Shown: piece by piece, positions 1,216-52,244 of the stretch
How the letters are laid out: every line of letters begins with the position of its first letter
Position numbering within the stretch: position 1 is the first letter of the stretch
Origin: Desulfobacterales bacterium
GTDB lineage: Bacteria; Desulfobacterota; Desulfobacteria; Desulfobacterales; JAIPEE01
NCBI GenBank assembly: GCA_021737275.1
Contig: JAIPEE010000028.1
Location: 1 to 52,244 of the forward strand
Direction: 5' to 3'
Length of the DNA stretch: 52,244 nt
Notes under the pieces: model-generated
What the model was told of the DNA's origin: nothing
Seen by the model: only the letters and a program-made list of their open reading frames with translations
Database searches by the model: none
Position numbers and translations under genes: made by a program

Positions 1216-4760
<3,545 letters not shown>

Positions 4761-5381: not shown

Positions 5382-5384
5382 AAT

Positions 5385-28124: not shown

Positions 28125-28132
28125 ACAGGAAT

Positions 28133-28167
28133 TGGGCCCATTCACAATTTTTAGATGAATGGGCCCA
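28133..28167 (+). terminator. intra-operon hairpin between livJ and livH
   Basis: TGGGCCCATTCA (28133-28144) and TGAATGGGCCCA (28156-28167) form a perfect 12-pair stem with an 11-base loop. No T run follows, so it more likely protects the binding-protein mRNA and reduces read-through than stops transcription fully. Confidence 0.65.
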
Positions 28168-28208
28168 TGTTCTGAGTCAATGATATTTCTATGAGGAACG
28201 GAAATAGT

Positions 28209-30030: not shown

Positions 30031-30061
30031 CAATCTGTTTGAGTAAAATAAGGAAAAAACA

Positions 30062-31974: not shown

Positions 31975-31997
31975 AAGCCTGAAAGGGAGCTTTGTTT

Positions 31998-32288
31998 ATG
32001 GGGAACACGTTTAAGGTAGAAGCGGTATTTTATGGCGGCCTGGAACATATCTTTAAAAAAAAGAAAATTGAAGCTGATCTTAGCCTTGTCCCGGATATCC
32101 GTTCTCTTCTGAAATATTGTTGTGTTTCCAATGAAAGCCGGACGAAACTTTTTGACGGCAGCAGCAATCTCCAACCGGACATAACTATATTGAGAAATGG
32201 GCGAAACATCGTGTTCCAGAATGGTTTGGAGACAATGCTTAGCGGGGGAGACACCATTGCAATCTTTCCTCCGATGACCGGTGGTTGA
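31998..32288 (+). CDS. MoaD/ThiS-like ubiquitin-fold sulfur carrier
   Basis: A small protein of about 96 residues ending in MTGG. The C-terminal Gly-Gly is the mark of MoaD/ThiS sulfur carriers, where it is adenylated and thiocarboxylated. Preceding residues (LSGGDTIAIFPP) match the final beta strand of the fold. ATG 31998 is chosen because GGGAG lies 8 bases upstream; a TTG at 31992 is too close. MoaD-like genes often accompany tungsten aldehyde oxidoreductases, whose cofactor needs pyranopterin dithiolene sulfur. Such a gene occurs with the Aromatoleum aldehyde oxidoreductase. Confidence 0.78.
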   Translation: MGNTFKVEAVFYGGLEHIFKKKKIEADLSLVPDIRSLLKYCCVSNESRTKLFDGSSNLQPDITILRNGRNIVFQNGLETMLSGGDTIAIFPPMTGG

Positions 32289-32358
32289 TGCTGTAATATA
32301 TGAAGCGCGATATGGCGTTTCTTTGTAATCCAAATGAAGTATAAGGAGGGATAGTAAT

Positions 32359-32841
32359 ATGCCAAAGGGGCTTGTCATAGATATCGGGAGGTGTACGGGA
32401 TGCGGCTATTGTGAACTTGTTTGCTCGTTTACCCATCATGGGGAGTTCAACCCCCTCAAATCCAGAATTAGCGTAAATATGTTTATCAGTCGTTCCATGG
32501 CTGTACCTGTTGTCTGCAGTCAGTGTGATGAACCCTTGTGTGCAAAAGCCTGTCCATCAGGAGCGCTTCAGATAAAAATATCCGCCAAGGATGGAAGTAA
32601 GGTAATTGAGGTAGATACTGATCAGTGTGTGGGGTGTAAAATGTGCACCCTAGCCTGTCCTTTCGGTTGTGTCGTTGTTTCAGAAGGTAAGGCTGAAAAA
32701 TGCGATCTTTGTGGAGGAGACCCCCAGTGTGTAAGGTTTTGCCGGACAAAAGCAATCCGGTTTGGAGAAGAGAACACATCAATCTCAGAAAAAAAGAAAA
32801 ATATGGCTGAACGGCTTTTGGGATCATTTCAGGAGGAATAA
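32359..32841 (+). CDS. four-cluster ferredoxin-like electron-transfer subunit of aldehyde oxidoreductase
   Basis: A 160-residue iron-sulfur protein with four Cys-rich groups: CTGCGYCELVC, CSQCDEPLCAKACP, CVGCKMCTLACP and CDLCGGDPQCVRFC. This is the four [4Fe-4S] HycB/DmsB-like layout. It has no signal peptide and so is cytoplasmic. AAGGAGG precedes the ATG by about 8 bases. The AOR gene starts 2 bases after its stop. It probably carries electrons between the tungsten subunit and the FAD subunit encoded next, as in multi-subunit bacterial AORs. Confidence 0.87.
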   Translation: MPKGLVIDIGRCTGCGYCELVCSFTHHGEFNPLKSRISVNMFISRSMAVPVVCSQCDEPLCAKACPSGALQIKISAKDGSKVIEVDTDQCVGCKMCTLACPFGCVVVSEGKAEKCDLCGGDPQCVRFCRTKAIRFGEENTSISEKKKNMAERLLGSFQEE

Positions 32842-32843
32842 TT

Positions 32844-34688: not shown

Positions 34689-34721
34689 AAGATAATAAAG
34701 AAATATTTTTTAAGAACCGTT

Positions 34722-35981
34722 ATGGCTGAAAGATATAAAAAACATGTGATCATCGGAAACAGCGCAGCCGGTTTGTCTGCTATTAAAGCTATTCGAAAAA
34801 CCGGTGATACGGGATCTATTGTCTTGATATCTGCTGAGTCCTGTAATGCTTATTCTCCGGTATTAACCACATACTATATCTCCGGCCAGATCGGGAAATC
34901 CAATCTCTTTTTTGTGGATGATTCATTTTATAAATTATTTGATGTTCACAGGGTGTTTGGGCACAAAGCCATTGGAATCGATTCTCTGGAAAGGGAGGTT
35001 TTGCTGGATAATCGTACCCGGATTACTTATGACAACCTTCTTATTGCGACCGGAGGATCAGCCAAGCCTCTGGATTGTGTTGATCAAAATGCTTTGGAAT
35101 TTGTTTCAACACTTCGGACCATCAAGGATGCAGACAAGATAAAAAAAGCAGGTGAAATGGCAAGAGAGATGGTTTTTCTTGGTGCGGGCCTTGTTAGCCT
35201 TCAGTCTATAAAGGCCCTGCTTGGAAAGGGCATAGAGATGACAGTGGTTGTAGGCTCGAACCAGGTGTTATCCCAACAGATGGATTCTGATAGTGCTTAC
35301 ATTCTCCAGGAAAAGCTTGAGTCTGCCGGCGTAAATATTCTTTTCGGCAGAGGGGTAGAAAAGGTGGTTCGAAATAAAAATCGAGCCTGTGTTTTTACGA
35401 GTTATGGGGAACGGTTACCGGCGGACATGGTTGTTGTCGGAAAAGGCGTCAGTCCAAATACTGAACTGGTCAACGGTACCGGGATCAAGGTAAACAAAGG
35501 TATTCTGGTAGATAACCGGATGCAAACCTCTTTAGAAAATGTGTTTGCAGCCGGTGATGTTGCCGAAGGTGAAAACGAGATTACAGGACAGATGGAAGTG
35601 ATTGCAACCTGGTTTAACGCCTGTGCCCAGGGTGAAGTTGCCGGACTTAACATGGCCGGGTGTTCGGTCATTCGCCGAGGCCAGTTCCGTGAAAATGTAA
35701 CAACAATACTCGGGCTGGAAATAACCTCGCTGGGACTCTCCTCACCTGAAGAGGGAAAGCACAATGTCTTTCATTATAAGGACAGAAAAAATGATATCTA
35801 CAGAAAGTTTTTAATAGAGGACTCTCACGTTGTTGGAGCGCTTCTTCTTGGAAAAGGCAATGATGCGGGTGTAATCAGACATTGTATTGCTAACCGTATT
35901 GATATTACGCCATGGCGAGAAGAGATTGCAAAGACACCTCTTGATTTTGGAAAAATTATGTATGGACATGGTATAAATTAA
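34722..35981 (+). CDS. FAD/NAD(P)-dependent oxidoreductase, probable third AOR subunit
   Basis: A 419-residue flavoprotein of the pyridine-nucleotide:disulfide oxidoreductase fold. The FAD-binding N-terminus reads HVIIGNSAAGLSAIKAIRK, a second nucleotide motif lies near residue 148 (MVFLGAGLVSLQSIKAL), and VFAAGDVAEG marks the FAD-binding C-terminal part. There is no redox CxxC pair, so it fits the NADH oxidoreductase type. It begins 33 bases after AOR and likely passes electrons between the iron-sulfur subunit and NAD. Confidence 0.85.
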   Translation: MAERYKKHVIIGNSAAGLSAIKAIRKTGDTGSIVLISAESCNAYSPVLTTYYISGQIGKSNLFFVDDSFYKLFDVHRVFGHKAIGIDSLEREVLLDNRTRITYDNLLIATGGSAKPLDCVDQNALEFVSTLRTIKDADKIKKAGEMAREMVFLGAGLVSLQSIKALLGKGIEMTVVVGSNQVLSQQMDSDSAYILQEKLESAGVNILFGRGVEKVVRNKNRACVFTSYGERLPADMVVVGKGVSPNTELVNGTGIKVNKGILVDNRMQTSLENVFAAGDVAEGENEITGQMEVIATWFNACAQGEVAGLNMAGCSVIRRGQFRENVTTILGLEITSLGLSSPEEGKHNVFHYKDRKNDIYRKFLIEDSHVVGALLLGKGNDAGVIRHCIANRIDITPWREEIAKTPLDFGKIMYGHGIN

Positions 35982-39140: not shown

Positions 39141-40223
39141 TCATTCTCTATCGGGGCAATAAGGAGGAAATCGGCATGCATCACGAAGTTTATTTATTGC
39201 CTTTTCGCGGCCTGTCGCCATCAGGCCGGCAATTATTTTCCCGGTGGTTGCTTCATAGTCCTGAAGATAACCGGGCTGGCCAGGGCACATTACCCGGCGC
39301 CAGGCAACAATACTGGTCGTAATAGCCTGCCTGACCAGAACAAGATCATAAAGAAGATCAATCTCTTCTTCTTCCAGAGGCAGCACGCTATCAAACCCGA
39401 CAGCAACATTGACAAGCGCATCCAGATAGCCTTCCGTACCAAGGTTTTCATTGTCAACAGCATTGGCAACTTCTATAACCAGTGGTGCATATATCAGGTC
39501 TCCGAAATCAATAAGACCGGTTATGCTGTCCGGTATCGCCGGATCTGTCAGAACATTTATGCTTGTCGCATCACCGTGGATAACCTGTTGGCGCAAGCCC
39601 TTCAGCTTAGGCAAAATATCTTTTTCCATATGATCAAATATCGTTTCAACATTTTGACGAGTGACAGGATCCTTTATCTTGTCGGTATGCCGGCGAAGAC
39701 CAAGGCAGCGCATGGTGTCCCAGATCAGTTCATGCCGGGCATGTGAATGAAAAAAGCCCCGCAGGGAAATATCTGTACGGGCCAGCAAGTTTCCCAGGTT
39801 ACGCAGCATAAGGGGTGATGGTGGAGGCGATTCTTCCAGGGTTGTTCCGGAAAGAAACGTTAATACATAAACAATGTGTCGGTTTCCATTGGCGGTTTCA
39901 AAGAAATCAGTATCATCGTCATTTTTATTTTTAACCACCCGCGGCACAGGCAATAAGGGTTCCTGCTGTTCAATATACTGAAGCGCCTTTATCTGAAAAT
40001 ATATGACATCCGGATCTTCATCGACATTGGTCATTTTTAATACAAAGCGGCGGCCATCATCTGTTTTAATTCGATAGTTCTGGTCCCTTTCACTTTCCAG
40101 CGGTTTGAAATCACCGCTCAGACCATAAAGATCCAGTGCAACCTGTCTGGCTTCTGATTCGGGGATTTGAGGAGGGTTGCGGTCCAGGAATTTAACATCG
40201 TTGTTATTGGTTTGGGGAGTCAT
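39141..40223 (-). CDS. aminoglycoside-phosphotransferase-fold kinase, hydroxylysine-kinase-like
   Basis: A 360-residue APH-type small-molecule kinase. The N-lobe has NYRIKTDDGRRFVLKMTN with the ATP-binding Lys. The catalytic loop is QQVIHGDATSINVL (HGD-x5-N) and the metal-binding DFGD follows in GLIDFGDLIYAPLVIEVAN. Homologues linked or fused to class-III aminotransferases include hydroxylysine kinase, which makes 5-phosphohydroxylysine. The partner aminotransferase next door is broken, so the product of this kinase may have no route. It lies between a saccharopine-dehydrogenase-like gene and that remnant. Homoserine or choline kinases are alternatives. Confidence 0.78.
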   Translation of the reverse strand: MTPQTNNNDVKFLDRNPPQIPESEARQVALDLYGLSGDFKPLESERDQNYRIKTDDGRRFVLKMTNVDEDPDVIYFQIKALQYIEQQEPLLPVPRVVKNKNDDDTDFFETANGNRHIVYVLTFLSGTTLEESPPPSPLMLRNLGNLLARTDISLRGFFHSHARHELIWDTMRCLGLRRHTDKIKDPVTRQNVETIFDHMEKDILPKLKGLRQQVIHGDATSINVLTDPAIPDSITGLIDFGDLIYAPLVIEVANAVDNENLGTEGYLDALVNVAVGFDSVLPLEEEEIDLLYDLVLVRQAITTSIVAWRRVMCPGQPGYLQDYEATTGKIIAGLMATGREKAINKLRDACRFPPYCPDRE

Positions 40224-40288
40224 ATTTTACCTTATATATTTATATTGGCCAAAACTTTTTACAGGAAGCGTTTCTTTGAAAGATACGT

Positions 40289-41512
40289 TTATTTTACTTC
40301 TTCAATCGTTGTTTCTACCGTTATTTCGAGTTTTGCGGCTTCATCGAAGTAGTATTTTCTCTGTTCTTCATTCAGCATTTCAGGGGTGAACATGCCCGGT
40401 TCAATAATCTTGTCATTTACGAACATCTTTGTAAAAAGAGCCCCCCCCTGCCCTGTGAAATATGTTTCACCGGTAAGTCCTGATTTTTCGAAGGCTTCAA
40501 CACATCCAGGGGCACTGACATAGCTTTCAACCATAATCTTTTTGCCATCTTTCATACCAATGGCCTGTACAACCATAGCACCATTGTCCTGCTCAAGACC
40601 TTCATCAAGAATTTCCTTGATCTCATCATGATATTTCGGCGCTGGCGGGGTGAGCTTCAATGCAAGGTTCATGGGAATCACCATCTGGCCATCAAGTTCA
40701 ACCGGCTCTCTGGAAAGCATGCCCATTCTGTAGAGCGGCTCAGCAAATTCAACACCGGCTCCACCATATTTAAAATAGATATTTTTTGCGCCCTTGAGAT
40801 ATTTGTCAGCATTGATACCCATTTCAAGCGGTTCATCATGCGCATGTTCGACCAGCCTTACCGGTTCGTCTACATGTTTGAATTTAACCATCATTGGCCT
40901 GCTGAAGGGTTCGGTTTCAATGATTTTGCCATTTTCATAAGCTACGGCCGTATCAGACATATCGCCGTATGCAACCTGCGGTGACCACCAGAACGGAAGA
41001 AATCTTTTGGCGACAACCCCTTCCCATACAAAATTGTAAATGGTTTCACATTCATCGAGGCGGTTTGCGGCATCTGCCGTTACAACACTGATAATACCCG
41101 GAGCAGATCCTGTACTCATAAGTCCTGTTTTTCCAATGGCTTTGAATCTTTCAGATGTTTCAGAGAGCATATATTTTGCGCCGTCAATCCAGGGCATGTC
41201 GTCTGCATCGGTCAATGCGAAGTCCTGATAGTTTGTTTTCACTTCAAGCGCGGCTTCCTGAACAATTCGCCCGAAAGGAAGCGGGAGTGCGTTAACAATA
41301 AGGTCAACACCCTGAGCGGCTTTTACAATATTTTCTTTCTTAGTTGCATCAATCTGTAACGGTTTACCTTTTGTAAGCTGTGAAGCAAGGTCGTTAACTG
41401 CCTTTTCATCATAATCGGCAATGATAAGTTCAGATACATTCGGTTCTTCGTCCATTCTTTTTGCTACGGTGCTTCCCTGAGCACCAACTCCGAGAATTAA
41501 AAGTTTTTTCAT
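40289..41512 (-). CDS. saccharopine dehydrogenase-like oxidoreductase
   Basis: A 407-residue NAD(P)-dependent enzyme. The N-terminal Rossmann fold is clear (KKLLILGVGAQGSTVAKRM, then an acidic ADYDEKAV end of strand 2 favouring NAD). LIVNALPLPFG and GSAPGIISVVTADAA are typical of the family. Saccharopine dehydrogenases cleave or form saccharopine via allysine; relatives act on carboxynorspermidine or lysine. GAGGGG lies about 9 bases before the ATG. It heads the leftward unit with the kinase-like gene and the aminotransferase remnant, which favours a lysine or hydroxylysine context. Confidence 0.75.
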   Translation of the reverse strand: MKKLLILGVGAQGSTVAKRMDEEPNVSELIIADYDEKAVNDLASQLTKGKPLQIDATKKENIVKAAQGVDLIVNALPLPFGRIVQEAALEVKTNYQDFALTDADDMPWIDGAKYMLSETSERFKAIGKTGLMSTGSAPGIISVVTADAANRLDECETIYNFVWEGVVAKRFLPFWWSPQVAYGDMSDTAVAYENGKIIETEPFSRPMMVKFKHVDEPVRLVEHAHDEPLEMGINADKYLKGAKNIYFKYGGAGVEFAEPLYRMGMLSREPVELDGQMVIPMNLALKLTPPAPKYHDEIKEILDEGLEQDNGAMVVQAIGMKDGKKIMVESYVSAPGCVEAFEKSGLTGETYFTGQGGALFTKMFVNDKIIEPGMFTPEMLNEEQRKYYFDEAAKLEITVETTIEEVK

Positions 41513-41783: not shown

Positions 41784-42473
41784 TTAACTATCTGATAAAA
41801 TTCGATAAGCTACATTTTTCAGATATTTTCTTAATTGGGCATATGATGTATCATCATCCGTTATGTTGGCATAGAAATCTTTTCCTTCAAACAGTACAAT
41901 AAGCAGGCCTGATGCCAGATCAGCATCAGACGTATTGATAACGCCCGCTTCATTCAGGTCTTCCAGTTCTTGTGTTAACGCCTTTCGGAAGCGGCCATAG
42001 AACTGGCGAAATTTTTCTTTTACCTTTGGATGTGTGATGCTCAGCGCATAGCACTCATAAAACCCCCTGTCACTGACAAGTTCTTCAATATTGCCACTTT
42101 CCAAAAGTAGCGTATCAATCAGGTATTCAAGCCGTTTTTTTGGATTCTTAAGCGCTTTTAAGCGATTCAGATAAAAATCTTCGTATTTACAGATAATAAA
42201 ATCTGAAAATCCGACAATCATCTCCTCTTTGGATTTGTAATAGTGGAGCAGCAGACTAGGATTCATGCCAATACTTTTTGCCACTTTGGCAAGGGTGGTA
42301 CCTGAAAAGCCATACTCATTGACCACTTTATGAAAGTGTTCCATGATCTCCAGCTTTCTTATATCTTTTAGTTGTTTCAAGGGGATGGGTTCCTTTTTAA
42401 AAAAGCGATCTTTGAGAGCCATGCTGTTTATCAATACTTCAAATCCAATTTTCTTTAATGGCTCTGACGGCAT
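41784..42473 (-). CDS. TetR-family transcription regulator
   Basis: A 229-residue frame with the TetR helix-turn-helix at about 40-90: IMEHFHKVVNEYGFSGTTLA, VAKSIGMNPSLLLHYYKSKE. The remainder is a ligand-binding helical domain. The first 35 or so residues are unlike TetR starts and overlap the FAD-oxidoreductase remnant, so the true start may be the internal ATG at 42422. Neither has a clear ribosome site. It sits between two leftward catabolic sets; its targets could be the saccharopine-dehydrogenase-like unit 271 bases downstream. Confidence 0.8.
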   Translation of the reverse strand: MPSEPLKKIGFEVLINSMALKDRFFKKEPIPLKQLKDIRKLEIMEHFHKVVNEYGFSGTTLAKVAKSIGMNPSLLLHYYKSKEEMIVGFSDFIICKYEDFYLNRLKALKNPKKRLEYLIDTLLLESGNIEELVSDRGFYECYALSITHPKVKEKFRQFYGRFRKALTQELEDLNEAGVINTSDADLASGLLIVLFEGKDFYANITDDDTSYAQLRKYLKNVAYRILSDS

Positions 42474-42978: not shown

Positions 42979-44340
42979 TCAATCCAACAGTGTTTTTACA
43001 CTTTCCCGAAAAATCCCGGTATGGGTATCTACATCCGATTCAGTTGTCTGGGGTGCGATCAGTGCCATGTTGTGAAACGGAGTCATTAGTATATTCCGGT
43101 TCATAGAAAAAAGATGCATGTACTGATCCAGTTCATCATCTACGGCCGCCGCCGCTTCACCGCCATTGCGGGCAGGCGTTTTAGAGAACCAGTATTCGGT
43201 CCGACAACCCAGGCGTGTGACATTCCATGGTAGGCCAAATTCATCAATTACACTGGAAATGCCTTCTGCAAAACGTTTTGCAAGGGAAATGGTATGAGCG
43301 AAAGTTTCCTCGGTCAGGGTGTTTTGTAACGTTGCCCTGATTGCTGCTACGGCCAGGGCATTACCGGCAAGAGTGCCGCCAATGCCGGTTTCGTCTGATG
43401 CAGAAGATTCCTTTTTAGGGGCATTGGCACGAATCATATCCACCATTTCGTTGCTGAAGCCGTATGCTGCAGTTGGAAAGCCACTGGCGATCGGTTTTCC
43501 AATGGTCAGGATGTCCGGCTCAAGGCCATTGGCTTTCGTGTAGCCGCCGGGACCGCAGCAGATGGTATGGGTTTCATCAATAAGAAGAAGCGTACCGGTC
43601 TTTCTGGTAATTTCTCTCATTGCTTCATGAAAACCCGGGTCCGGGTGAACGATTCCGATATTGGTCATGGCCGGTTCCGCCAGAACTAAGGCTACATCGC
43701 CCGGCGTAAGCGCAGCTTCAAGGGCATCAATATCATTAAATTCCACCACCCTGGTAGTTATTGCCGGATCAACCGGTGCACCGGTATTGCTTTTTCTGGA
43801 CGTGGGTACACCATCCACAAGAATGATCTGCGCCTCATCAACAGTACCGTGATAGCAGTAGTTAAAAACCAGAATTTTGGGGCGTTTGGTTACAGAGCGG
43901 GCAAGGCGAATACAAAACCGGTTAGCATCTGTAGCGGTCATGGCAAGCTGCCAGTAAGGAATGCCAAACCGCCGGGCCATCTCCTCGCCTACCCAGATCG
44001 AATCTTCGGTGGGGCACATGAAAGTAAATCCTTTAGTCATTGCTTTCCGGATTTCCTTTACAGATGCTTCAGGCGCATGTCCGGTCATAGCGCCGGTATC
44101 CCCCAGACAGAAATCAATATAGTTGTTTCCGTCTACATCCACAAAACCGGCACCTGAAGCCTTGTCAATAAATATGGGAAACGGACTGGCCCATTCCGTC
44201 ATCCAGGGCATGGGAACACCATCCAGCAGACTGGACTGGGCTTTTTCAAACAGCGCTTTTGATTTAGGGTGCATTGCAATAAATTTTTGTTCTTCATTTT
44301 TGATAAGGCTTTTTAATTTTTGACGATTAATTTGAATCAT
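42979..44340 (-). CDS. class-III aminotransferase, glutamate-1-semialdehyde aminomutase-like
   Basis: A complete 453-residue PLP enzyme. The PLP Lys is K282 in LTIGKPIASGFPTAAYG, with LLLIDETHTICCGPGGY before it and FCLGDTGAMTGHAP near the N-terminus, as in GSA aminomutases (FxxGDTGxMxGH). Here HemL itself is unlikely: the gene sits among SDR dehydrogenases and a FAD-oxidoreductase remnant, and the N-terminus carries about 40 extra residues. It more likely transaminates an amino acid or amine in the local pathway. GGAG precedes the ATG; it begins 12 bases after the SDR gene. Confidence 0.85.
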   Translation of the reverse strand: MIQINRQKLKSLIKNEEQKFIAMHPKSKALFEKAQSSLLDGVPMPWMTEWASPFPIFIDKASGAGFVDVDGNNYIDFCLGDTGAMTGHAPEASVKEIRKAMTKGFTFMCPTEDSIWVGEEMARRFGIPYWQLAMTATDANRFCIRLARSVTKRPKILVFNYCYHGTVDEAQIILVDGVPTSRKSNTGAPVDPAITTRVVEFNDIDALEAALTPGDVALVLAEPAMTNIGIVHPDPGFHEAMREITRKTGTLLLIDETHTICCGPGGYTKANGLEPDILTIGKPIASGFPTAAYGFSNEMVDMIRANAPKKESSASDETGIGGTLAGNALAVAAIRATLQNTLTEETFAHTISLAKRFAEGISSVIDEFGLPWNVTRLGCRTEYWFSKTPARNGGEAAAAVDDELDQYMHLFSMNRNILMTPFHNMALIAPQTTESDVDTHTGIFRESVKTLLD

Positions 44341-44352
44341 TTTGAGTTCTCC

Positions 44353-45135
44353 TTAATATCCGGCCGTTAGACCAAAGTCGATGGATATGGGCGAGCCCGT
44401 AAAGGCAAGCGCTTTGTTTGATGATAAAAAGAAGACAATCTCGGCAATTTCTTCCGTTTTGATAAAACGGGCTTTTTCCTTTTGCGGGTACATGTTTAAC
44501 AGATCCTTGAAATATCCTTCCGGATCACCTTTTCCGAAAGCATCCGCCTGAAATTGAAGCATGGGTGAAAAAATATCGCCCGGGCATATGGGAATTACGC
44601 GGACCAGCCAGGGGGCCAGTTCGACAGCAAGCGCCTTGCTTAATAATGTAACACCGCCCTTGCTGGCGCAATAGATGGCGGCCTCATTATTTCCCATCAG
44701 GCCGGCGTCTGAGCTGAAATTGATGATGCAACCTTGGGTTTTTTTCAACTCAGGTATGGCTCGAGAGCACATAAAATAGGTTCCCTTAAGGTTGATATCA
44801 ACAACATGATTCCACTCTTCCTCGGTGCTTTTCTCGCTCTCTCCTTCAGTCCAGACACCGGCTGCATTTATCAAAATATCCAGTTGTCCGAATTTTGAAA
44901 TAGTTTCGCGAATTGCATTTTCACAGGCCGCAACGTTTTTTACATCGCAAACCACAGTTTGAATCTTGCCTTTTAAAGCAGAGAGTTTTTTAGCATCTTC
45001 TGCCAACTTGGCTTCATTGATATCAGCCAGCATCACATTGGCCCCTTCTGTTAAAAACTTAACAGCAGAAGCACCTCCAGCGCCGCCGGTTCCGCCACTT
45101 ATCAGAACAACTTTTTCTTTCCAATTTGTTTCCAT
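44353..45135 (-). CDS. short-chain dehydrogenase/reductase (SDR), copy A
   Basis: A 260-residue classical SDR. The cofactor motif reads ISGGTGGAGGASAV (TGxxxGxG type, with an extra Gly), Asp-Ile in MLADIN favours NAD, and the NAG equivalent is INAAGV. The catalytic residues are Ser in NFSSDAGLMG and Tyr-x-x-x-Lys as YCASKGG. It shares long blocks with the SDR at 47479-48261, including NLKGT(Y/F)FMCSRAIPEL and a common ending G-x-x-x-GY, so the two are paralogues on opposite sides of the LacI gene. AGGAGA precedes the ATG. Substrate unknown. Confidence 0.88.
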   Translation of the reverse strand: METNWKEKVVLISGGTGGAGGASAVKFLTEGANVMLADINEAKLAEDAKKLSALKGKIQTVVCDVKNVAACENAIRETISKFGQLDILINAAGVWTEGESEKSTEEEWNHVVDINLKGTYFMCSRAIPELKKTQGCIINFSSDAGLMGNNEAAIYCASKGGVTLLSKALAVELAPWLVRVIPICPGDIFSPMLQFQADAFGKGDPEGYFKDLLNMYPQKEKARFIKTEEIAEIVFFLSSNKALAFTGSPISIDFGLTAGY

Positions 45136-45154
45136 TATTTATATCTCCTGAGGG

Positions 45155-45949
45155 TTAGTAAAATAGTTCGCTCGGGCCTTTATACTCCTGAATAGTGTTA
45201 CCGCCGTCGATTACAAAAACCTGACCCGTAATATAGGTTGATTCATCGGAAGCCAGAAAGGCGATGAGCTGACCCACTTCATGAGGCGTTCCGGCTCGTT
45301 TCATGGGGGTGTTCTCTGCGCCAATCGCCTCTTCATCCCTGGTTGCGCCCGAGGCAATCCACCCTGGGGCAACATTGTTTACAGTGATACCGTATTTAGC
45401 TACTTCTATAGCCAGACTGCGGCTCATGCCAATCATGGCTGATTTTCCGGCACTGTAGCCGGTTTGACCGGGATTGCTGACAATCGGGCCGGTTACAGAG
45501 GAGACATTCACAATCCGGCCATAATTATTTTTTATCATATAGGGCAGGACTTCTTTTGTGATATTAAAGCAAGTGTTCAGGTTGCGGTCTATGCTGATAT
45601 CCCAGGCTTCATAAGGGTAGTCGACCATGTTTTCATAAACATCTTTCCTGCCGGTCTGAGTCATGCCTGCATTGTTTACAAGAATATCGATCCGTCCATA
45701 TTTACTGACAACTGTTTTGACCAGTTCGCGAACCTGATCCCGATTCATTAAGTCTGCAATGCAGGAAAAGGCCCGATCTCCGGCATCAAGTTCTTTCAGG
45801 CGGGTATAAATCCGGTCCGATGTCGCAGTGATTACGGTTTTTGCGCCACTCTTCACCAAAATTCCGGCAGCGGCAAAGCCAATGCCCGTATCGCTTCCAG
45901 CTCCTGTGACCAGAGCGACACGATCTTGAAAACGGTTTTTTTCTGTCAT
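45155..45949 (-). CDS. short-chain dehydrogenase/reductase (FabG-like)
   Basis: A 264-residue classical SDR with cofactor region VTGAGSDTGIGFAAA, NNAG in LVNNAGMTQTG, catalytic Ser in NVSSVTGPIVS, YSAGKSA (YxxxK) and the C-terminal VFVIDGGNT. It resembles FabG-type 3-oxoacyl reductases but its catabolic neighbours suggest oxidation of a hydroxy compound. GGAAGG lies 6 bases before the ATG. It heads the leftward set that faces the LacI gene; its promoter lies in 45950-46108, where TTGACT on the minus strand (46025-46030) is a possible -35. Confidence 0.88.
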   Translation of the reverse strand: MTEKNRFQDRVALVTGAGSDTGIGFAAAGILVKSGAKTVITATSDRIYTRLKELDAGDRAFSCIADLMNRDQVRELVKTVVSKYGRIDILVNNAGMTQTGRKDVYENMVDYPYEAWDISIDRNLNTCFNITKEVLPYMIKNNYGRIVNVSSVTGPIVSNPGQTGYSAGKSAMIGMSRSLAIEVAKYGITVNNVAPGWIASGATRDEEAIGAENTPMKRAGTPHEVGQLIAFLASDESTYITGQVFVIDGGNTIQEYKGPSELFY

Positions 45950-46108: not shown

Positions 46109-46138
46109 TTTAACACGTGTATTGTTACACGTGTTAAA
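46109..46138. promoter_or_regulatory. palindromic operator upstream of the LacI-family gene
   Basis: A 30-base perfect inverted repeat: TTTAACACGTGT, ATTGTT, ACACGTGTTAAA. Each arm contains the self-complementary core ACACGTGT, so it may be two operator sites. The core with central CG matches LacI-family operators. It ends 12 bases before the regulator ATG and recurs as TAACACGTGTTA at 47247-47258. Confidence 0.8.
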
Positions 46139-46150
46139 TGAGATGAATTT

Positions 46151-47203
46151 ATGAATGATACTCAGAAAAAACTCACCATGCAGCAACTTGCAGACGAACT
46201 CGGTTTAAGCCGGGTAACGGTGTCGTCTGTCATAAACGGCAAGGGGTTGCAAAGAAATATCTCACAAAAAACAATTAACCGGGTTAAAGCGTATGTCAAA
46301 ACAAGAGGGTTTGTCCCCTCTCAGCACGCAAGAGATCTGAGGCTTGGCAGCAGGGCGCCGGTAGGGATTATTCATAGTGGACAGTTGTATAGCCATTTGA
46401 TTGAGGCATTTAATCTTTTTAACAATTATTTTAGTAGTCAAAATCTGATTACTGAAATTGTGGTTGTCAACCGGGGTAATTTGGTCAATGGATTTAAAAA
46501 CCTGATTTCCAGAGGGATTAACAAACTGATATGGATTAATACGAGGGATCCGGGGTTGGAACTTGATAGCGCTGAAGAGATATTATATCTGCTTAAAAAT
46601 GTTCATTCAGTGATTTACCAATATATATTTGATAACGGCCTATGGGATAGAAGACTAACTGAAAGCGGTATTTATCTGGTCGGCCCCAATGAAAGAAAAA
46701 TTCATGCTGAGTTGGCCCTATTCATAAAGTCTTTAGGACATAGAAACATTATTGTCTGTGAATATTTTGAGTCATTAGAATGCGCCGGATATGGATTTGC
46801 TGAAGCATTTAAAAAAGTTGGATTAAATGTGTTAACGCTGGAACAGCCTACGAAAGATGCCAATCGTATATCATCGATTGGAAAGTTTTTTGCAGAAAAA
46901 ATTGTTGATGCAATGAGATCAGATGAAATTACAGCAGCCTGCTTTTATGATGATGAAATTGCATCGGAATGTATGCATGAACTACTTTCAATGGGCGTAA
47001 AAATTCCCGAAGAACTATCAATGACAGGGTATGATAATTTAAAATTCACCAAATATTTATCGGTACCGCTAACCACTGTTCAAATGCCCGTTCAGGAAAT
47101 GGTTTCAAAAACAGTGGCGCTTATCGAATCAAAGCAAGATAAACAAAAACATCTATTTGATTTAGAAATTATAAAAAGAAAAAGCCATGGGTTTAAAATA
47201 TAA
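46151..47203 (+). CDS. LacI-family transcription regulator
   Basis: A 350-residue repressor-type protein. The N-terminal helix-turn-helix reads TMQQLADELGLSRVTVSSVI followed by NGKG, the LacI pattern, and the rest is a periplasmic-binding-like sensor domain (Peripla_BP_3 type) with ISMTGYDNLKF-like effector region near residue 290 (ELSMTGYDN). The ligand is probably a sugar-like or small catabolite. It sits between two catabolic operons. The operator at 46109-46138 overlaps its start region, and the same site lies at the promoter of the next operon, so it probably controls itself and that operon. Confidence 0.9.
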   Translation: MNDTQKKLTMQQLADELGLSRVTVSSVINGKGLQRNISQKTINRVKAYVKTRGFVPSQHARDLRLGSRAPVGIIHSGQLYSHLIEAFNLFNNYFSSQNLITEIVVVNRGNLVNGFKNLISRGINKLIWINTRDPGLELDSAEEILYLLKNVHSVIYQYIFDNGLWDRRLTESGIYLVGPNERKIHAELALFIKSLGHRNIIVCEYFESLECAGYGFAEAFKKVGLNVLTLEQPTKDANRISSIGKFFAEKIVDAMRSDEITAACFYDDEIASECMHELLSMGVKIPEELSMTGYDNLKFTKYLSVPLTTVQMPVQEMVSKTVALIESKQDKQKHLFDLEIIKRKSHGFKI

Positions 47204-47239
47204 TATTTACAGGCGGTCGGGAAAGATTGGTTTTTTTGT

Positions 47240-47258
47240 TATAATTTAACACGTGTTA
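47240..47258 (+). promoter_or_regulatory. -10 box and LacI-type operator of the SDR/P-protein-like operon
   Basis: A perfect TATAAT (47240-47245) directly joins TTTAACACGTGTTA (47245-47258), containing the 12-base palindrome TAACACGTGTTA. A half-site-like TGTGTTAA follows at 47263-47270. The -35 region is weak. A bound repressor would cover the start of transcription. Confidence 0.75.
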
Positions 47259-47478
47259 TGTCTGTGTTAAGTGGAAACTAATCCTTTTGATAGCTGAATG
47301 AAGGCTTATAAATTAAGGATACCTCTAGTTGTCTTTCACTCTGATTTCAGAGTTATACTAAAAATTTAAACTCTCGAAATACATTAGTATTCTTCCGGTA
47401 AAAATTTTTAGAGACATCCTGAATAAAAAATAACAAATGGAGAGATATCAACAATTTTAAATTATCAGGGGTGCTGAA
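47259..47478 (+). ncRNA. long structured 5' leader of the SDR/P-protein-like operon (putative)
   Basis: About 220 bases separate the promoter from the first start codon, with no gene. ATCCTT (47281-47286) can pair with AAGGAT (47315-47320), enclosing ATAGC and GCTTAT. ACTCTGA (47338-47344) is complementary to TCAGAGT (47347-47353). AGGGGTG near 47467 is the ribosome site. No known riboswitch core was recognised, including that of the glycine riboswitch. A regulatory leader is only a possibility. Confidence 0.3.
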
Positions 47479-48261
47479 ATGAATGACATAAAAAATGAAA
47501 TGAAAGGGAAAACAATAATTATTTCAGGCGGTTCAGGAGGTATTGGACTGGCTGCGGCCAGGAAGTTTTTAGAAAATGGTGGAACTGTATATTTATCGGA
47601 TATTGACGAAGATAAGTTAATTGCTTCTGTGAAGGAATTAAACCAATATGGAAATATAAAGTATATTGTTACTGATGTTACAAACGTTACTGATTGTGAA
47701 CGTTTAATAAAAATTGTTGTGAAAGATACCCGAAGAATTGATGTAGTAATTAATTCTGCTGGAATATTTGTTGAAGGGCCAACGGAGGCAATGATGGAGG
47801 ATATCTGGGATAGAACGATAAATGTAAACTTAAAAGGTACCTTTTTCATGTGCAGCCGTGCAATACCGGAACTTGAAAAAACAAAGGGTTGTATTGTAAA
47901 TGTTAATTCTGATGCAGGAATTGGTGGTAATCCTGAAAATTGTATTTATAATGCCTCAAAGGGTGGCGTCTCTCTCATAACTCAATCATTAGGTCTTGAA
48001 CTAGCACCGAAGCAAATTAGAGTCAACTCGGTTTGCCCATGTGATGTTGATACACCAATGTTCGACGGACAAATCAGGAATTCCGGAGAAGGCCAGGCCT
48101 ATGTTGATAAACTAGTTAGCAAGTATCCTGCAAAAGAGAACGCAAGGCTTATTGCGCCGGAAGAGGTTGCGGAAGCAATATATTTTCTTGCATCCTCAAA
48201 ATGTCCACCAATTACGGCACAAAACATATCTCTTGATTGGGGGCTAAACTCAGGATACTAA
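47479..48261 (+). CDS. short-chain dehydrogenase/reductase (SDR), copy B
   Basis: A 260-residue SDR with cofactor motif ISGGSGGIGLAAA, LSDID (NAD preference), INSAGIF, Ser in NVNSDAGIGG and YNASKGG. It is paralogous to copy A (44353-45135): same length, same ending style (G-x-NSGY / G-x-TAGY), same block NLKGTFFMCSRAIPEL. The two probably act on related compounds. It is the first gene of the LacI-operator-controlled rightward operon, 65 bases before the P-protein-like pair. Codon use here is more AT-rich than copy A, hinting at separate histories. Confidence 0.88.
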   Translation: MNDIKNEMKGKTIIISGGSGGIGLAAARKFLENGGTVYLSDIDEDKLIASVKELNQYGNIKYIVTDVTNVTDCERLIKIVVKDTRRIDVVINSAGIFVEGPTEAMMEDIWDRTINVNLKGTFFMCSRAIPELEKTKGCIVNVNSDAGIGGNPENCIYNASKGGVSLITQSLGLELAPKQIRVNSVCPCDVDTPMFDGQIRNSGEGQAYVDKLVSKYPAKENARLIAPEEVAEAIYFLASSKCPPITAQNISLDWGLNSGY

Positions 48262-48325
48262 AAATAACCAGATAACAAAAAAGGTAAGGTATAAAATAAT
48301 AAAACGATAGTGTGGAGGAACTGTG

Positions 48326-49738
48326 ATGAATATAACCAAATTTGAGCATCCCTATATCCCTAATGCCGGGAGCGATGCAAAAGAAGAACTAATGATGTCA
48401 ATCGGCAAGCGTAATGAAAGAGAAATTTTTGATATGATCCCCGATCATTTATTATATCAGAAATTTAATCTACCAGAGCCGATATTAGATGAGTATACGC
48501 TAAAACGACATGCGAATGCAATTTTATCAAAGAATGCTAACCTGAATACACACCTCTATTTTTTAGGGGCAGGATGTGCCCCTCATTTTATTCCGGCTGT
48601 TGTTGATGAAGTCCTTGGCAGAGGAGAATTTTATACGTCGTATTCAAGTATAATGGGTGACCAGGGAAGAGGTCAGCTTCAATTTGAATACCAAAGCATG
48701 ATGGCAGAATTGCTCGATATGGATGTTATCGCATTTCCACAATATGATGGCGGCAGTTCAGTGGGACACTCTTTCAGGATAGCATGCCGTCTCACAAAGC
48801 GTAAAAAAATACTTATTCCAAAGAGTATGAGCAATCAAAATTATCAAATAGCATATAACTATATTAATCAAATTGATGGAAAGTATTGTGAATTAATAAC
48901 AGTTGATTATGATAAAAATACAGGGCTGTTGGATTTAAATGATCTCAAATCTGAATTAAGCGAAGAGATAGCGGCAGTGTTTATTGAAAACCCCACTTTT
49001 TCCGGAATTGTTGAACTGCAGGCAGAAGAAATTGGCAAAATGGCCAAAGCCGTAGGGGCAGAATTTATTGTATACGCAGATCCAATATCACTTGGTGTAA
49101 TTGAAGCGCCAGGTAATTATGGTGCAACTATTGCGTGTGGGGATCTTCATTCTCTTGGTATTCACATGTTAGCAGGTGCCGGCGTTGGCGGTTTTGTAAT
49201 GGTAAAAGATAACTCAAAATATGCATATCAATTAAAAGATATGATGTATGCCGCATCGCCGACAAATGTAGAGGGAGAAATTGCGTTTAGCTATGAAGCC
49301 GCATTTGACAGAACTTCTTATGAAATACGTGAAAAGTCAGCAGAATATACTGGAACCAGTTCCGGTTTATGGACTGCTTTAGCCGGGGTATACCTGGCAG
49401 TAATGGGACCAAAAGGAATGTCAGAAGTTGGAACAATCATTATGCAAAATTCCCAATATGCCGCCAAAAGAATATCTGAAATCCCCAATGTTGAGATAAA
49501 ATTTGGAGGCACCTTTTTTAAGGAATTTGTTGTGGATTTTACTAAAACAGGGAAAACAGTGAGTGAGATAAATAAAAGTCTGCTTAAGAAAAATATAATA
49601 GGGGGTTATGAACTTTCAAAAGCAGACATTGAATTAAAAGACTGCATGTTAGTTTGTGTAACTGAAATTCATACCAAAGCTGATATTGATAAATTTGTAA
49701 ACGCTGTTAAAGCGGTTGTTCAGACAGGGGGTAAGTAA
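48326..49738 (+). CDS. glycine decarboxylase P-protein subunit 1-like protein (GcvPA paralogue)
   Basis: A 470-residue protein matching the N-terminal half of split glycine decarboxylase. FLGAGCAPHFIPAVVDEVL and EFYTSY fit GcvPA. However, the normal signature TPYQPE-x-SQG-x-LQ is replaced by SSIMGDQGRGQLQ, and MYDGAT-like sequence reads QYDGGS. ATG 48326 is chosen over GTG 48323 because GGAGG lies 7 bases upstream. It pairs with the subunit 2-like gene next to it. No gcvH, gcvT or lpd is nearby, so an ordinary glycine cleavage role is doubtful; a PLP decarboxylase or lyase on another amino compound is inferred. Confidence 0.82.
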   Translation: MNITKFEHPYIPNAGSDAKEELMMSIGKRNEREIFDMIPDHLLYQKFNLPEPILDEYTLKRHANAILSKNANLNTHLYFLGAGCAPHFIPAVVDEVLGRGEFYTSYSSIMGDQGRGQLQFEYQSMMAELLDMDVIAFPQYDGGSSVGHSFRIACRLTKRKKILIPKSMSNQNYQIAYNYINQIDGKYCELITVDYDKNTGLLDLNDLKSELSEEIAAVFIENPTFSGIVELQAEEIGKMAKAVGAEFIVYADPISLGVIEAPGNYGATIACGDLHSLGIHMLAGAGVGGFVMVKDNSKYAYQLKDMMYAASPTNVEGEIAFSYEAAFDRTSYEIREKSAEYTGTSSGLWTALAGVYLAVMGPKGMSEVGTIIMQNSQYAAKRISEIPNVEIKFGGTFFKEFVVDFTKTGKTVSEINKSLLKKNIIGGYELSKADIELKDCMLVCVTEIHTKADIDKFVNAVKAVVQTGGK

Positions 49739-49739
49739 A

Positions 49740-51302
49740 ATGCAAAAAGTTAAGATAAGAGATTTTCATCAGGCACGCTGGAACGAGCCTATTGTTATGG
49801 AATTAAATATTCCCGGTGAAAGAGGCGTTCTTATTCCTAAAGCTGATAAAGAAATTAAGAATGAAATAGGCGACGGCGTTTCTAATCTTAAAAGTTTAAA
49901 AAGAAAAAGTGAGCTTGGATTACCGGAAGTTAATCAGGCCCGATTAGTCCGGCACTATATTCGGCTAACCCAGGAGTGTATGGGATCAGATAATACCCTT
50001 GGAATATCTCAAGGCACATGCACGTTAAAATATAATCCTAAAATAAATGAGTTTTTGGTTAAGCATCCGGGGCTTTTAGATGTACATCCACTTCAAGATG
50101 ACGATACGATGCAAGGCGTACTTGAAATATACTATAAAACTGAGCAGATAATGAAAGAACTTGCCGGTATGGACAAATTTTCATTTTTACCGGGAGCCGG
50201 AGGACAAGCCATATATAGCAATGCGGTTATTGTAAAAAAGTACCAGGAATATAAAAAAAACACACATAAGAATGAAATTATTACAACATTGCACTCACAT
50301 CCTGTAGATGCTGCCGCTTCATCAACCGTTGGATATAAAATAATAACATTAATGCCAAATGATGAAACAGGGCTACCTGACTGGAACGAATACCAGGCCG
50401 CATTGAGTGAAAAAACAGCCGCTATCTTTATAACAAACCCTGAAGACACAGGAATCTTTAACAAAAGAATTGACGAATATACAAAGGCGGCACATGATAT
50501 CGGCGCGCTAAGTGTTTATGACCAAGCTAATGCAAATGCGCTAATTGGAATTGCGAGAGCGGGTGAAGCAGGATTTGACTTAATGCACTTTAATCTTCAC
50601 AAAACATTTTCTTCTCCACATGGTGCTGATGGCCCCGGTTGTGGCGCACTGGGGTGTTCAGATGAATTAGCAAAGTTTCTGCCAAAGCCAACAGTCGAGT
50701 TCAATGGAAGCAAATACTATTTAGACTATGACAGAGAACATAGTATCGGATATATTAAACAATTTTTAGGAAATACGGCTGCAGTTCTAAGGGCATATTT
50801 GTGGTGCATGAATCTGGGTGAAGAAGGCTTAAGGCAAGCGGCTACAATTTCCGTGTTAAATAATCAATATATGACAAAAGAGATTTTAGATAAAGTTCCC
50901 GGAACATCCATTCATTATAATGTTGATGCTGAGCAACGTATGGAGCAAACACGCTTATCATTTGATAAATTATTTGAGCAAACAGGTTTAGGTATTATGG
51001 ATGTTAACAATAGATTAATCGATTACGGTATATCTGAATTATGGATGTCACATCATCCTTTCACTGTTCCGGAACCATTTACTCCTGAACCATGTGAGTC
51101 TTATAACAAAGAGGACATTGATTATTATGTAGAGGTTTTAAGAAAAATTGCTAACGAATGTAAAAATACGCCTGATATAGTAAAAAATGCGCCTCATAAA
51201 GCATCAAAACATTCTCCGGTCAGAATACCTTTACATTCTACTGAGGAAGACTTCAAACACTTAGCAACTACCTGGAGAGCATATATAAAGCGATTTAAAT
51301 AG
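49740..51302 (+). CDS. glycine decarboxylase P-protein subunit 2-like protein (GcvPB paralogue)
   Basis: This chain corresponds to the C-terminal, PLP-bearing half of glycine decarboxylase. The PLP lysine is K288 in HFNLHKTFSSPHGADGPGCG, matching NLHKTFSTPHGGGGPG. NPKINEF and HPLQDDDTMQG are also family features. Changes from the usual motifs are marked: AHGTNPASA reads SHPVDAAAS, DGANLNA reads DQANANA, and PLGSCTMKYNP reads ISQGTCTLKYNP. ATG 49740 follows GGGGG by about 8 bases and the previous stop by 1. Probably forms an alpha2beta2 enzyme with the preceding subunit. Substrate unknown. Confidence 0.85.
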   Translation: MQKVKIRDFHQARWNEPIVMELNIPGERGVLIPKADKEIKNEIGDGVSNLKSLKRKSELGLPEVNQARLVRHYIRLTQECMGSDNTLGISQGTCTLKYNPKINEFLVKHPGLLDVHPLQDDDTMQGVLEIYYKTEQIMKELAGMDKFSFLPGAGGQAIYSNAVIVKKYQEYKKNTHKNEIITTLHSHPVDAAASSTVGYKIITLMPNDETGLPDWNEYQAALSEKTAAIFITNPEDTGIFNKRIDEYTKAAHDIGALSVYDQANANALIGIARAGEAGFDLMHFNLHKTFSSPHGADGPGCGALGCSDELAKFLPKPTVEFNGSKYYLDYDREHSIGYIKQFLGNTAAVLRAYLWCMNLGEEGLRQAATISVLNNQYMTKEILDKVPGTSIHYNVDAEQRMEQTRLSFDKLFEQTGLGIMDVNNRLIDYGISELWMSHHPFTVPEPFTPEPCESYNKEDIDYYVEVLRKIANECKNTPDIVKNAPHKASKHSPVRIPLHSTEEDFKHLATTWRAYIKRFK

Positions 51303-51317
51303 AAAGGTTGTTTATTA

Positions 51318-52187
51318 ATGAAAAAATTAGGCGTCATTGTCAACCCTATTGCCGGCATAGGGGGACGCGTAGGGCTAAAAGGAAGTGATGGTGAAGAAAT
51401 ATTAAAGATGGCGTTAGCTCTCGGCGCCAAACCGGAATCTCCTGACAGGGCTATAGAAGCATTAAAAATAATCAGCAGAATAAAAGATAAGATCGACGTT
51501 ATTACCTTCCCAAAAAACATGGGTGAATATGAGTTAAAAAAAGCAGGCTTTAGTCCAAAAGTTATTGGTGAAATCGCTGGAGATACGTCATCCTTTAAAG
51601 ATACAATCATGGCTGCACAAGCCATGATTGTTGAGGAGGTTGATCTCCTTGTTTATGCAGGAGGAGATGGGACTGCAAGAGATATATATAATGCAGTAAA
51701 AAACAAATTGGTAACATTAGGGATACCAACAGGCGTTAAAATTCATTCGGGTGTATATGCAATCAACCCCAAAAGTGCTGGCGTCGCAGCGCTTCAATAT
51801 CTTCAAAGTGAAACACCTCAAGTAAAAGAAGCTGAAGTTATGGATTTAGATGAAGAAGCGTATCGGTCCGGAAGGGTTAGCGCGAAACTTTATGGTTTTA
51901 TGAACATACCTAATAATGAGCATTTTATTCAAAATAAAAAAGTCCGAAGTAACTCTGAAGAAAATTCTCTTAATAGTATTGCCCATAACATTATTGACAA
52001 TATGGAAAATGACGTTAATTATATTATCGGGCCCGGCACAACGACCGGAAGGGTTATGCAAATCCTTAATTTATCGAATACATTAATTGGCATTGATATT
52101 ATAAGACTAAAGTTTAGAGTTACAGCTCCACCTGGCATCTCATTTTATAGGTGGATGATTTTTAACAATTTGCTCTTTTACAATTAA
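51318..52187 (+). CDS. AcoX / ATP-NAD kinase-like protein, abnormal C-terminus
   Basis: A 289-residue protein starting KKLGVIVNPIAGIGGRVGLK, with LLVYAGGDGTARDI (the GGDGT nucleotide motif of NAD and lipid kinases) and IPTGVKIHSGVYAINPKSAG, as in AcoX-like proteins. Late family sequence YIIGPGTTTGRVMQ and TLIGIDII is present. After about 52100 the sequence (RLKFRVTAPPG onward) no longer resembles the family, which usually runs to about 370 residues. A frameshift, deletion or insertion boundary there is likely. Its link to the P-protein-like pair suggests a role in the same pathway; AcoX function itself is poorly known. The 57 bases after it show no gene. Confidence 0.72.
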   Translation: MKKLGVIVNPIAGIGGRVGLKGSDGEEILKMALALGAKPESPDRAIEALKIISRIKDKIDVITFPKNMGEYELKKAGFSPKVIGEIAGDTSSFKDTIMAAQAMIVEEVDLLVYAGGDGTARDIYNAVKNKLVTLGIPTGVKIHSGVYAINPKSAGVAALQYLQSETPQVKEAEVMDLDEEAYRSGRVSAKLYGFMNIPNNEHFIQNKKVRSNSEENSLNSIAHNIIDNMENDVNYIIGPGTTTGRVMQILNLSNTLIGIDIIRLKFRVTAPPGISFYRWMIFNNLLFYN

Positions 52188-52244
52188 CGGTGCACCCTTT
52201 ACTACAGTCAGGTACAAAATGGCTCATTTGGCGGTTTGAATTTT

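Follow-up and report, generated by a model that had tools for sequence, protein, structure and literature searches.

The DNA analysed here, called the window throughout, is the entire contig C80 (JAIPEE010000028.1, 52244 bases) of a Desulfobacterales bacterium (GCA_021737275.1), whose genome assembly spans 4.26 Mb in 104 contigs. The right end of the window carries a gene cluster composed of a LacI-family regulator, a short-chain dehydrogenase/reductase (SDR), two subunits resembling the P-protein of the glycine cleavage system and an AcoX-like protein. The two-subunit enzyme probably breaks down an amino compound other than glycine, since by sequence it falls on a separate branch of its family, has a changed active site and keeps other partner genes. 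The first gene of the cluster, on the forward strand, encodes the regulator (46151-47203), identified by PF00356 (helix-turn-helix) and PF13377 (ligand-binding domain). It shares with LacI-family catabolic regulators the combination of a helix-turn-helix and a sugar-binding-protein-like domain, and its closest NCBIfam model is RbsR, below the cut-off. The next gene, also on the forward strand, is the first structural gene and encodes an SDR (47479-48261) recognised by Pfam and 58% and 57% identical to the SDRs of the two closest loci; against NCBIfam it scores best with meso-2,3-butanediol dehydrogenase, short of the cut-off (201.5 vs 270). The two forward-strand genes that follow encode the GcvPA-like subunit (48326-49738; PF02347 at 151 bits, NCBIfam GcvPA at 397.5 with a cut-off of 364) and the GcvPB-like subunit (49740-51302; NCBIfam GcvPB at 493.1 with a cut-off of 441), which binds pyridoxal phosphate (PLP) and carries Lys288 in an LHKTF motif. 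Both belong to a non-canonical clade, and they are referred to below as PA and PB. The final gene is the interrupted 5' part of an acoX-like gene of the NAD kinase (NADK)/diacylglycerol kinase (DAGK) superfamily (51318-52106, forward strand; PF01513), 49% identical to a second AcoX of this genome, AcoX2 (match at L014:3486-4277). By their coordinates the structural genes are packed closely, with gaps of 64, 1 and 15 bases. The Pfam and NCBIfam matches confirm the five gene types where an earlier sequence-only reading of this DNA had placed them.

Putative operators for the regulator lie on both sides of lacI. Two inverted boxes with the sequence TTTAACACGTGT form a pair in the gap between lacI and a divergent operon (46109-46138, with one box on the forward strand at 46109-46120 and the other on the reverse strand at 46127-46138), and a third box is found on the forward strand in the gap between lacI and the SDR gene (47245-47256). 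All three are exact matches. LacI operators are palindromes with a central CG, like the boxes in the window. The possibility that the boxes are chance matches was considered and rejected. The 10-mer AACACGTGTT, with up to one mismatch, occurs three times in the window against a mean of 1.16 in shuffled sequence, and 12 of 100 shuffles reach at least three, which is weak alone and not significant; the 12-mer TTTAACACGTGT is significant, with three exact copies in the window against 0.18 expected at up to one mismatch and none of 100 shuffles reaching three. The three copies flanking lacI are the sole exact copies in the genome, which bears out the matching operators proposed from the sequence alone. 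The position of the boxes and the family of the regulator suggest that LacI binds all three.

The divergent operon on the reverse strand (42979-45949) begins approximately 160 bp from the operator pair. Its first and middle genes encode SDR dehydrogenases (45155-45949 and 44353-45135, both PF00106/PF13561) and its last gene encodes a class-III transaminase (42979-44340; NCBIfam PRK07046, NF005453, 654.9 bits vs a cut-off of 425). This operon is probably part of the same unit as the LacI-controlled genes, since the regulatory gap that it shares with lacI holds two of the three boxes. The gene order LacI-SDR-PA-PB-AcoX that had been proposed as one unit stands, but its extent does not, given that the divergent operon probably belongs to it and that acoX is cut near 52107. 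Family scans of all eight genes of the two operons identified no transport gene, no sugar gene and no thiamine pyrophosphate-dependent E1 or lipoyl E2 gene (acoABC). No gene for the H- or T-protein is seen in the cluster, in keeping with the earlier statement that the window has none.

The clade to which the two subunits belong was studied in 91 loci, comprising 7 plasmid loci, 80 genome loci and 4 loci with short flanks (L100-L103, of which L100 is the copy in the window); a second copy of the set in this genome, on contig C15, is excluded. For the genome loci, the best 80 of at least 578 GTDB relatives were taken, the larger number possibly including canonical P-proteins. These 80 lean toward near relatives of the window, and many are cut by contig ends. 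Clade labels were given by whichever reference scored higher, and all 80 genome loci scored higher with the clade PB than with a canonical PB. In the PB tree, one branch with an SH-aLRT of 100 splits 91 clade rows from 38 canonical rows, and in the PA tree one branch with the same value splits 83 clade rows from 35 canonical rows. Rows were removed by length (1 of 92 for PB, 2 of 85 for PA and 2 of 37 for canonical PA), and the trees are quick searches without bootstrap and with some long branches (L134, L136, L138, L139 and L095). Both subunits thus fall outside the canonical clade when placed beside bona fide GcvPA and GcvPB, the comparison that the sequence-only reading had proposed.

The PLP core of the enzyme is kept, with the PLP-binding Lys and the conserved Asp and His present in alignment columns of 92/92 clade PBs each. 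The PA loop YTPYQ[PA]E is found in 35/35 canonical sequences vs 0/83 of the clade, although the column of its first Tyr keeps a Tyr in 75 of the 83. Near the lost loop, the motif D.G..Q is present in 80/83 clade sequences vs 0/35 canonical ones. The C-terminal PB motif P[PM]T.[YA]FP is likewise found in 34/37 canonical sequences vs 0/92 of the clade, and SH.P...P[EQ]P in 85/92 of the clade vs 0/37 canonical sequences. According to PMC7259800, the active site of human P-protein includes Y161, Y164, T894 and W897, and residues I372, R373 and K376 form an interface with the H-protein predicted by a docking model. The mapping of these human residues onto the clade alignments is our own, with YTPYQ[PA]E equated with human Y161 to Y164. 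At the interface positions the clade has the Ile in 0/83, the Arg in 2/83 and the Lys in 29/83 sequences, and canonical proteins have them in 36, 35 and 33 of 36; the predicted interface stretch as a whole is kept in 35/35 canonical sequences vs 0/83 of the clade. The predicted fold of PB is nearest to P-protein beta subunits (Foldseek E-values of 2.6e-35 to a GCSPA-GCSPB model and 9.4e-31 to 1wyu), based on a model with a mean pLDDT of 74.5, which suffices for the fold and not for active-site geometry.

The genes that accompany the clade also differ from those of glycine cleavage. TBLASTN searches identified AcoX in 72/91 loci, where it lies downstream of PB on the same strand in 61, upstream in 8 and on the opposite strand in 3. 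The H- and T-like proteins of the window's genome, used as queries at 1e-6, gave no match to either in the 91 loci, many of which are cut by contig ends. Applied to 20 canonical regions, the same queries detected H or T in 18 and AcoX in none. These canonical regions of 3.5-6.5 kb come from genomes also carrying the set and were chosen with the places of H and T known, so that this result mainly tests the queries and is a poor estimate of the true rate. The 91 clade loci, searched in all six frames, gave no match to an Lpd-type redox motif. An SDR lies within 2.5 kb in 58/87 clade loci vs 0/20 of the shorter canonical regions. Of 156 predicted operon members, 141 were scanned as neighbours (11 over 650 residues and 4 more were dropped), and 52 of the 141 matched SDR families; these genes were predicted by a home-made gene caller that is error-prone in GC-rich loci. 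Acetoin-dehydrogenase families are absent from the 25 commonest Pfam families of the 141 neighbours. More variable partners include M20 hydrolases, amino-acid permeases, CoA ligases, an amine oxidase, class-III transaminases and methylmalonyl-CoA mutase, along with CoA transferases in two loci, and in one locus AcoX-PA-PB adjoins an SDR, an acyl-CoA synthetase, an amine oxidase and a permease. The predicted co-occurrence of LacI, SDR, PA/PB and AcoX thus holds in part: SDR, PA, PB and AcoX recur widely, but LacI seems to be outside the conserved set, since the regulators seen in other loci differ from it.

The AcoX-like protein looks like a member of the NADK/DAGK superfamily by Pfam. The intact AcoX2 matches PF01513 and PF20143, and a GGDG motif is invariant in 35/35 aligned members. 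The protein has approximately 375 residues and ends in a conserved C-terminal block, GGQG...GRGN. A search of the Protein Data Bank (PDB) with the AcoX2 sequence gave no match at an E-value of 0.01. A structural model (pTM 0.56) aligns over residues 1-210 with NADK, DAGK and sphingosine kinase, with VIA Z-scores that peak at 10.7 (147 residues, 3.6 A). Unrelated chains score close to this best value (3lkv at 10.4, 7cgp at 9.6 and PurE at about 9), and the fold match adds little because chains with unrelated titles reach a Z of 10.4.

A separate set of glycine cleavage genes is present in the same genome. On contig C8, gcvH, gcvPA and gcvPB score over their NCBIfam cut-offs (159, 590 and 713 bits), so that the lack of separate gcvPA/PB genes, which would have told against the earlier reading, does not apply. 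The GcvT-like gene there is below its cut-offs (218 vs 300 and 172 vs 236), and no lipoamide dehydrogenase was identified beside these genes on C8. After the gcv genes come, in a row, a flavoprotein resembling CoA-disulfide reductases and genes of the LipB and LipA types. The flavoprotein (L013:7813-9228) occupies the place between gcvPB and the LipB/LipA-type genes in which one might look for a lipoamide dehydrogenase, but it is below the cut-off for its family and does not carry the Lpd-type redox motif. As a query it had no match in the 91 clade loci, a result that says nothing about lipoamide dehydrogenase, and in a further comparison its one match was the window's own gene at 34722-35981. 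The genome has one strong H-protein, with a second match of 22.3 bits inside a 682-residue frame.

H-, T- and P-proteins were searched for in 49 genomes with the set, drawn from 50 of the 80 loci picked for longer contigs or isolates, and a T-protein-family match was found in 44 of them. The H-protein is below the cut-off or absent in four genomes (G069, G078, G089 and G092). G092 has a canonical P fragment together with LipA and LplA-type genes, and looks incomplete. In G069, G078 and G089 no T match was found, and the PF02347 matches listed are the set's own (174-216 bits), with no canonical P. Among the 8 genomes in which LipA and LplA/LipB were sought, neither had a match in G078 (Lachnospiraceae IMSAGC_019) or G089 (a Thermovirga metagenome-assembled genome, MAG); G069 has an LplA-type gene. 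Since these two genomes carry the set with neither an H-protein over the cut-off nor lipoylation genes, some members of the clade may be independent of lipoate. As a rough check of completeness, tRNA-synthetase frames were counted: G089 gave four over the cut-off (899, 930, 834 and 648 residues) plus a weak fifth (482), against three in G078, which makes G089 the stronger case. The premise of the sequence-only reading that a P-protein needs a lipoyl-H protein may therefore not hold across the clade, with two of 49 genomes pointing away from it, though the window's genome has H and LipA/LipB-type genes and its enzyme may depend on H. A further genome, G072 (locus L047, a Synergistaceae MAG), carries the set together with an LplA-type gene and an H-protein match of 129 bits, and T and a canonical P were not found in it; it is a candidate case of H serving an enzyme of the clade.

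We tentatively favour the reading that the cluster is an inducible module for catabolism, with SDRs acting first to oxidise an amino alcohol and the PLP enzyme then cleaving what they form. LacI would repress the two divergent operons through the three TTTAACACGTGT boxes, as its sites and family suggest, and a small molecule would release it. The core would be the two-subunit PLP enzyme, whose sequence indicates a clade split from the glycine-cleavage P-protein with the PLP core kept and the substrate and carrier side rebuilt. The SDR would oxidise a hydroxyl beside the amine of an amino alcohol or beta-hydroxy amino acid to give an alpha-amino ketone or beta-keto amino acid, and PA/PB would bind the amine on PLP and break the adjacent C-C bond by deacylation or decarboxylation, with the carbon not passed to the H- and T-proteins. 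The transaminase and the other SDRs would process the products, a role that may be filled elsewhere by the amine oxidase, CoA ligase and CoA transferase, and AcoX would support the module as a metabolite kinase or NAD kinase. This mechanism is modelled on acetoin catabolism, where the enzyme that breaks the C-C bond works alongside a 2,3-butanediol dehydrogenase and AcoX. In a more general form, a widespread P-protein-type clade would work without lipoate or H and, with a dedicated SDR and an AcoX kinase, would turn amino alcohols (or hydroxy-amino acids) into alpha-amino ketones and cleave these, as a PLP counterpart of acetoin cleavage that databases list as glycine dehydrogenase; this form is possible but doubtful. 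In ephedrine-degrading Arthrobacter, SDRs reportedly produce an amino ketone (methcathinone), a lead that carries no weight as evidence here.

Several observations weigh against this catabolic reading. The amino-ketone step was proposed solely from the accompanying genes and from the chemistry of the families. The window's own acoX is interrupted, and AcoX was undetected in 19 of the 91 loci, some of them deep inside long contigs. There may be no single substrate across the clade, given that the neighbours beyond SDR and AcoX vary. An H-protein over the cut-off is present in 45 of the 49 genomes with the set, so H service in trans is possible for most of them, as it is for the window's genome. 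Of the two genomes that suggest lipoate independence, G078 gave only three tRNA-synthetase frames and looks incomplete, and the locus of G089 comes from a MAG.

Ordinary glycine cleavage was considered for the cluster and rejected, since the sequence motifs, the trees and the accompanying genes all count against it, in agreement with the earlier view that it was unlikely. A glycine decarboxylase isoform with a specialised role, drawing in trans on the H (and T and L) of the cell, would fit the scores of the window pair over the GcvPA and GcvPB cut-offs and the wide presence of an H-protein, including the strong one in this genome. The NCBIfam cut-offs fail to separate the two kinds, passing both the canonical pair (590/713 bits) and the window pair (397.5/493.1). 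Such an isoform is improbable in view of the YTPYQ[PA]E and H-interface motifs, each missing in 83/83 sequences, the lack of H or T beside the set in the 91 loci, the two genomes G078 and G089, and the canonical gcvPA/PB and gcvH already in the genome. It is unlikely, though a little less so, that the enzyme is a lipoyl-H-dependent P-protein for an amino acid other than glycine in which AcoX or the SDR replaces the T-protein. This would account for the P-protein fold and PLP core, the H-protein in most genomes, the gene content of G072 and the occurrence of AcoX beside acetoin dehydrogenase, another lipoyl enzyme, but it is at odds with the genomes without lipoylation genes and with the loss of most of the predicted interface residues.

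A kinase-lyase pair comparable to sphingosine kinase and sphingosine-1-phosphate (S1P) lyase is quite unlikely. In such a pair, AcoX would phosphorylate the amino alcohol or amino ketone and PA/PB, as a fold-type-I PLP lyase, would cleave the phosphorylated compound. The Pfam NAD_kinase and DAGK_cat matches of AcoX point in this direction, as do its alignment with NADK, DAGK and sphingosine kinase over the first 210 or so residues and its place as the most constant partner found; the high scores of unrelated chains make the fold match weak, and the loci in which AcoX was undetected count against it. S1P lyase is among the weaker matches of PB but ranks far below the P-proteins. Very improbable is a biosynthetic or detoxifying operon that uses the same chemistry toward synthesis. 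It would agree with the lack of a transport gene in the two operons of the window, but several features count against it: the LacI regulator with its operators, the presence of transporters, permeases and M20 hydrolases at other loci, and, close to the second set, the genes for an enolase and a glycerate-kinase-like protein.

Among known systems, the two-subunit glycine decarboxylase of Thermus (1wyt/1wyu) is the best PDB sequence match (374 and 259 bits) and shares with the clade its two subunits, its fold and the PLP Lys, Asp and His. The clade differs in its separate branch, in having D.G..Q and SH.P...P[EQ]P in place of YTPYQ[PA]E and P[PM]T.[YA]FP, and in loci that carry AcoX and an SDR with no H or T gene found nearby. 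The AcoX of acetoin-catabolism operons is a putative NADK-like protein that also accompanies an enzyme breaking a small molecule, with an SDR, but the window has a PLP enzyme and no thiamine pyrophosphate-dependent acetoin dehydrogenase among the scanned genes. AcoX shares PF01513, PF20143 (in the intact copy), GGDG and the N-terminal alignment with the NAD, diacylglycerol and sphingosine kinases, and differs in its length, its C-terminal block and the lack of a PDB sequence match. Searches of open-licence literature in PMC, as distinct from subscription papers and preprints, brought up no recognisable report of AcoX with a glycine-dehydrogenase-like pair or of a lipoate-independent P-protein. 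The sequences indicate that this is a real, misnamed and widespread enzyme clade with partners of its own, beyond an isolated oddity, within the known PLP fold-type-I P-protein family. Annotation labels the clade proteins as glycine dehydrogenase subunits, and genomes may for that reason be credited with a second glycine decarboxylase that they lack. If the clade works without lipoate, it would be an exception to P-protein chemistry needing the arm of the H-protein and would offer a two-subunit PLP scaffold for new C-C cleavage. The clade also gives AcoX a second setting, beyond acetoin operons, in which its function can be tested.

Going by record titles, the set is found across Bacillota, Synergistaceae, Chloroflexota, Actinobacteria, Proteobacteria and archaea (Bathyarchaeota, Heimdallarchaeota and Thorarchaeota), and cultured members include Rhodococcus jostii RHA1, Paracoccus aminophilus and Brevibacillus. 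The nearest among the matches listed, Bacilliculturomica (74%) and a Clostridiales MAG (71%), share the gene order SDR-PA-PB-AcoX, and horizontal transfer may lie behind this relationship. Within its own order the clade type is present in 4 of 58 genomes (the window's own, G000, and G013, G018 and G053, among 57 others of the same order); the window PB scores 1211 bits with itself, 548-616 with these relatives and at most 286 with the others. A scan of IMG/VR gave no viral relative, and a viral trait was rejected. Among the best 40 of 160 plasmid records matching the Rhodococcus member, eight have 55-100% identity, followed by a drop to 36%. Three PLSDB records of 2.9-4.1 Mb filed as plasmids (NZ_CP030101.1, NZ_OL790811.1 and NZ_OL790812.1) look like misfiled chromosomes. 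A Bathyarchaeota locus, L135 (G071:C113:1000-5000), encodes an intermediate pair in which PA favours the clade reference (371 vs 283) and PB the canonical one (416 vs 365), with H and T genes approximately 5 kb away on the same contig; this pair may show how the clade arose.

At the right end of the window, the frame at 51318-52187 enters an insertion sequence at about 52107, so that its final 27 or so codons are not acoX and a complete acoX in the window is ruled out. The left end of the element (52107-52244) lies outside the operon and closes the contig, preceded by one copy of an 8-bp target-site duplication, TTATAAGA (52099-52106), whose other copy is at L014:135-142. The last 114 bases (52131-52244) are repeated in the genome at 12 places at 100% identity, their own included, and at 7 places at about 81%. 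Ten of these 19 matches start at the first or second base of a contig and the window copy ends its contig, the pattern that an assembly-breaking insertion sequence should leave. Two related elements, corresponding to the 12 and the 7 places, seem to do so, for example in contigs C5, C37, C56 and C80.

Contig C15 (L014) starts with what is likely the other end of such an element, followed by an open frame at about 140-472 that corresponds to the missing C-terminus of acoX. Contigs C80 and C15 are very probably neighbours in the genome, judging by TTATAAGA on both sides together with the element end and acoX C-terminus at the start of C15. The second set follows on C15, with PA2 (L014:525-1931), PB2 and the intact AcoX2 (L014:3468-4607), which may substitute for the interrupted acoX1 in this strain. 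A second class-III transaminase, 60% identical to that of the window, is encoded on the strand opposite the second set (L014:4673-6022). Beside the second set is a row of genes (L014:6237-11572) whose products are an IclR regulator, an enolase that passes its NCBIfam cut-off, a glycerate-2-kinase-like protein (below the cut-off), a nickel-pincer cofactor-dependent isomerase (NCBIfam group 22, over the cut-off) and, from a reading of its translation, a cupin-like protein; this row may belong to the same pathway. Further along, the translation of L014:17516-18499 has the look of the MttB trimethylamine-methyltransferase family, near electron-transfer flavoprotein and acyl-CoA dehydrogenase-like genes.

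To the left of the transaminase operon, the window encodes an APH-family phosphotransferase and a saccharopine-dehydrogenase-like protein on the reverse strand (39141-41512), with a TetR-type regulator (41784-42473) between this pair and the operon. The saccharopine-dehydrogenase-like gene has weak matches in two loci, to distant relatives in L029 and L077, and the APH-like gene has no matches in the clade loci. The region at 26871-35981 includes a periplasmic binding protein and an ABC ATPase, which by a reading of the translation are of the branched-chain amino-acid type, and then an aldehyde ferredoxin oxidoreductase (32844-34688) and, at 34722-35981, a pyridine-nucleotide-disulphide oxidoreductase whose C-terminus is of the rubredoxin-reductase type. 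At the left end of the window, positions 1-9000 exhibit a GC content of 0.29-0.35 vs 0.36-0.46 elsewhere and include gyrB (1216-3645) and most of a gene encoding a UvrD-type helicase (6291-9677); this end may be a replication-origin region.

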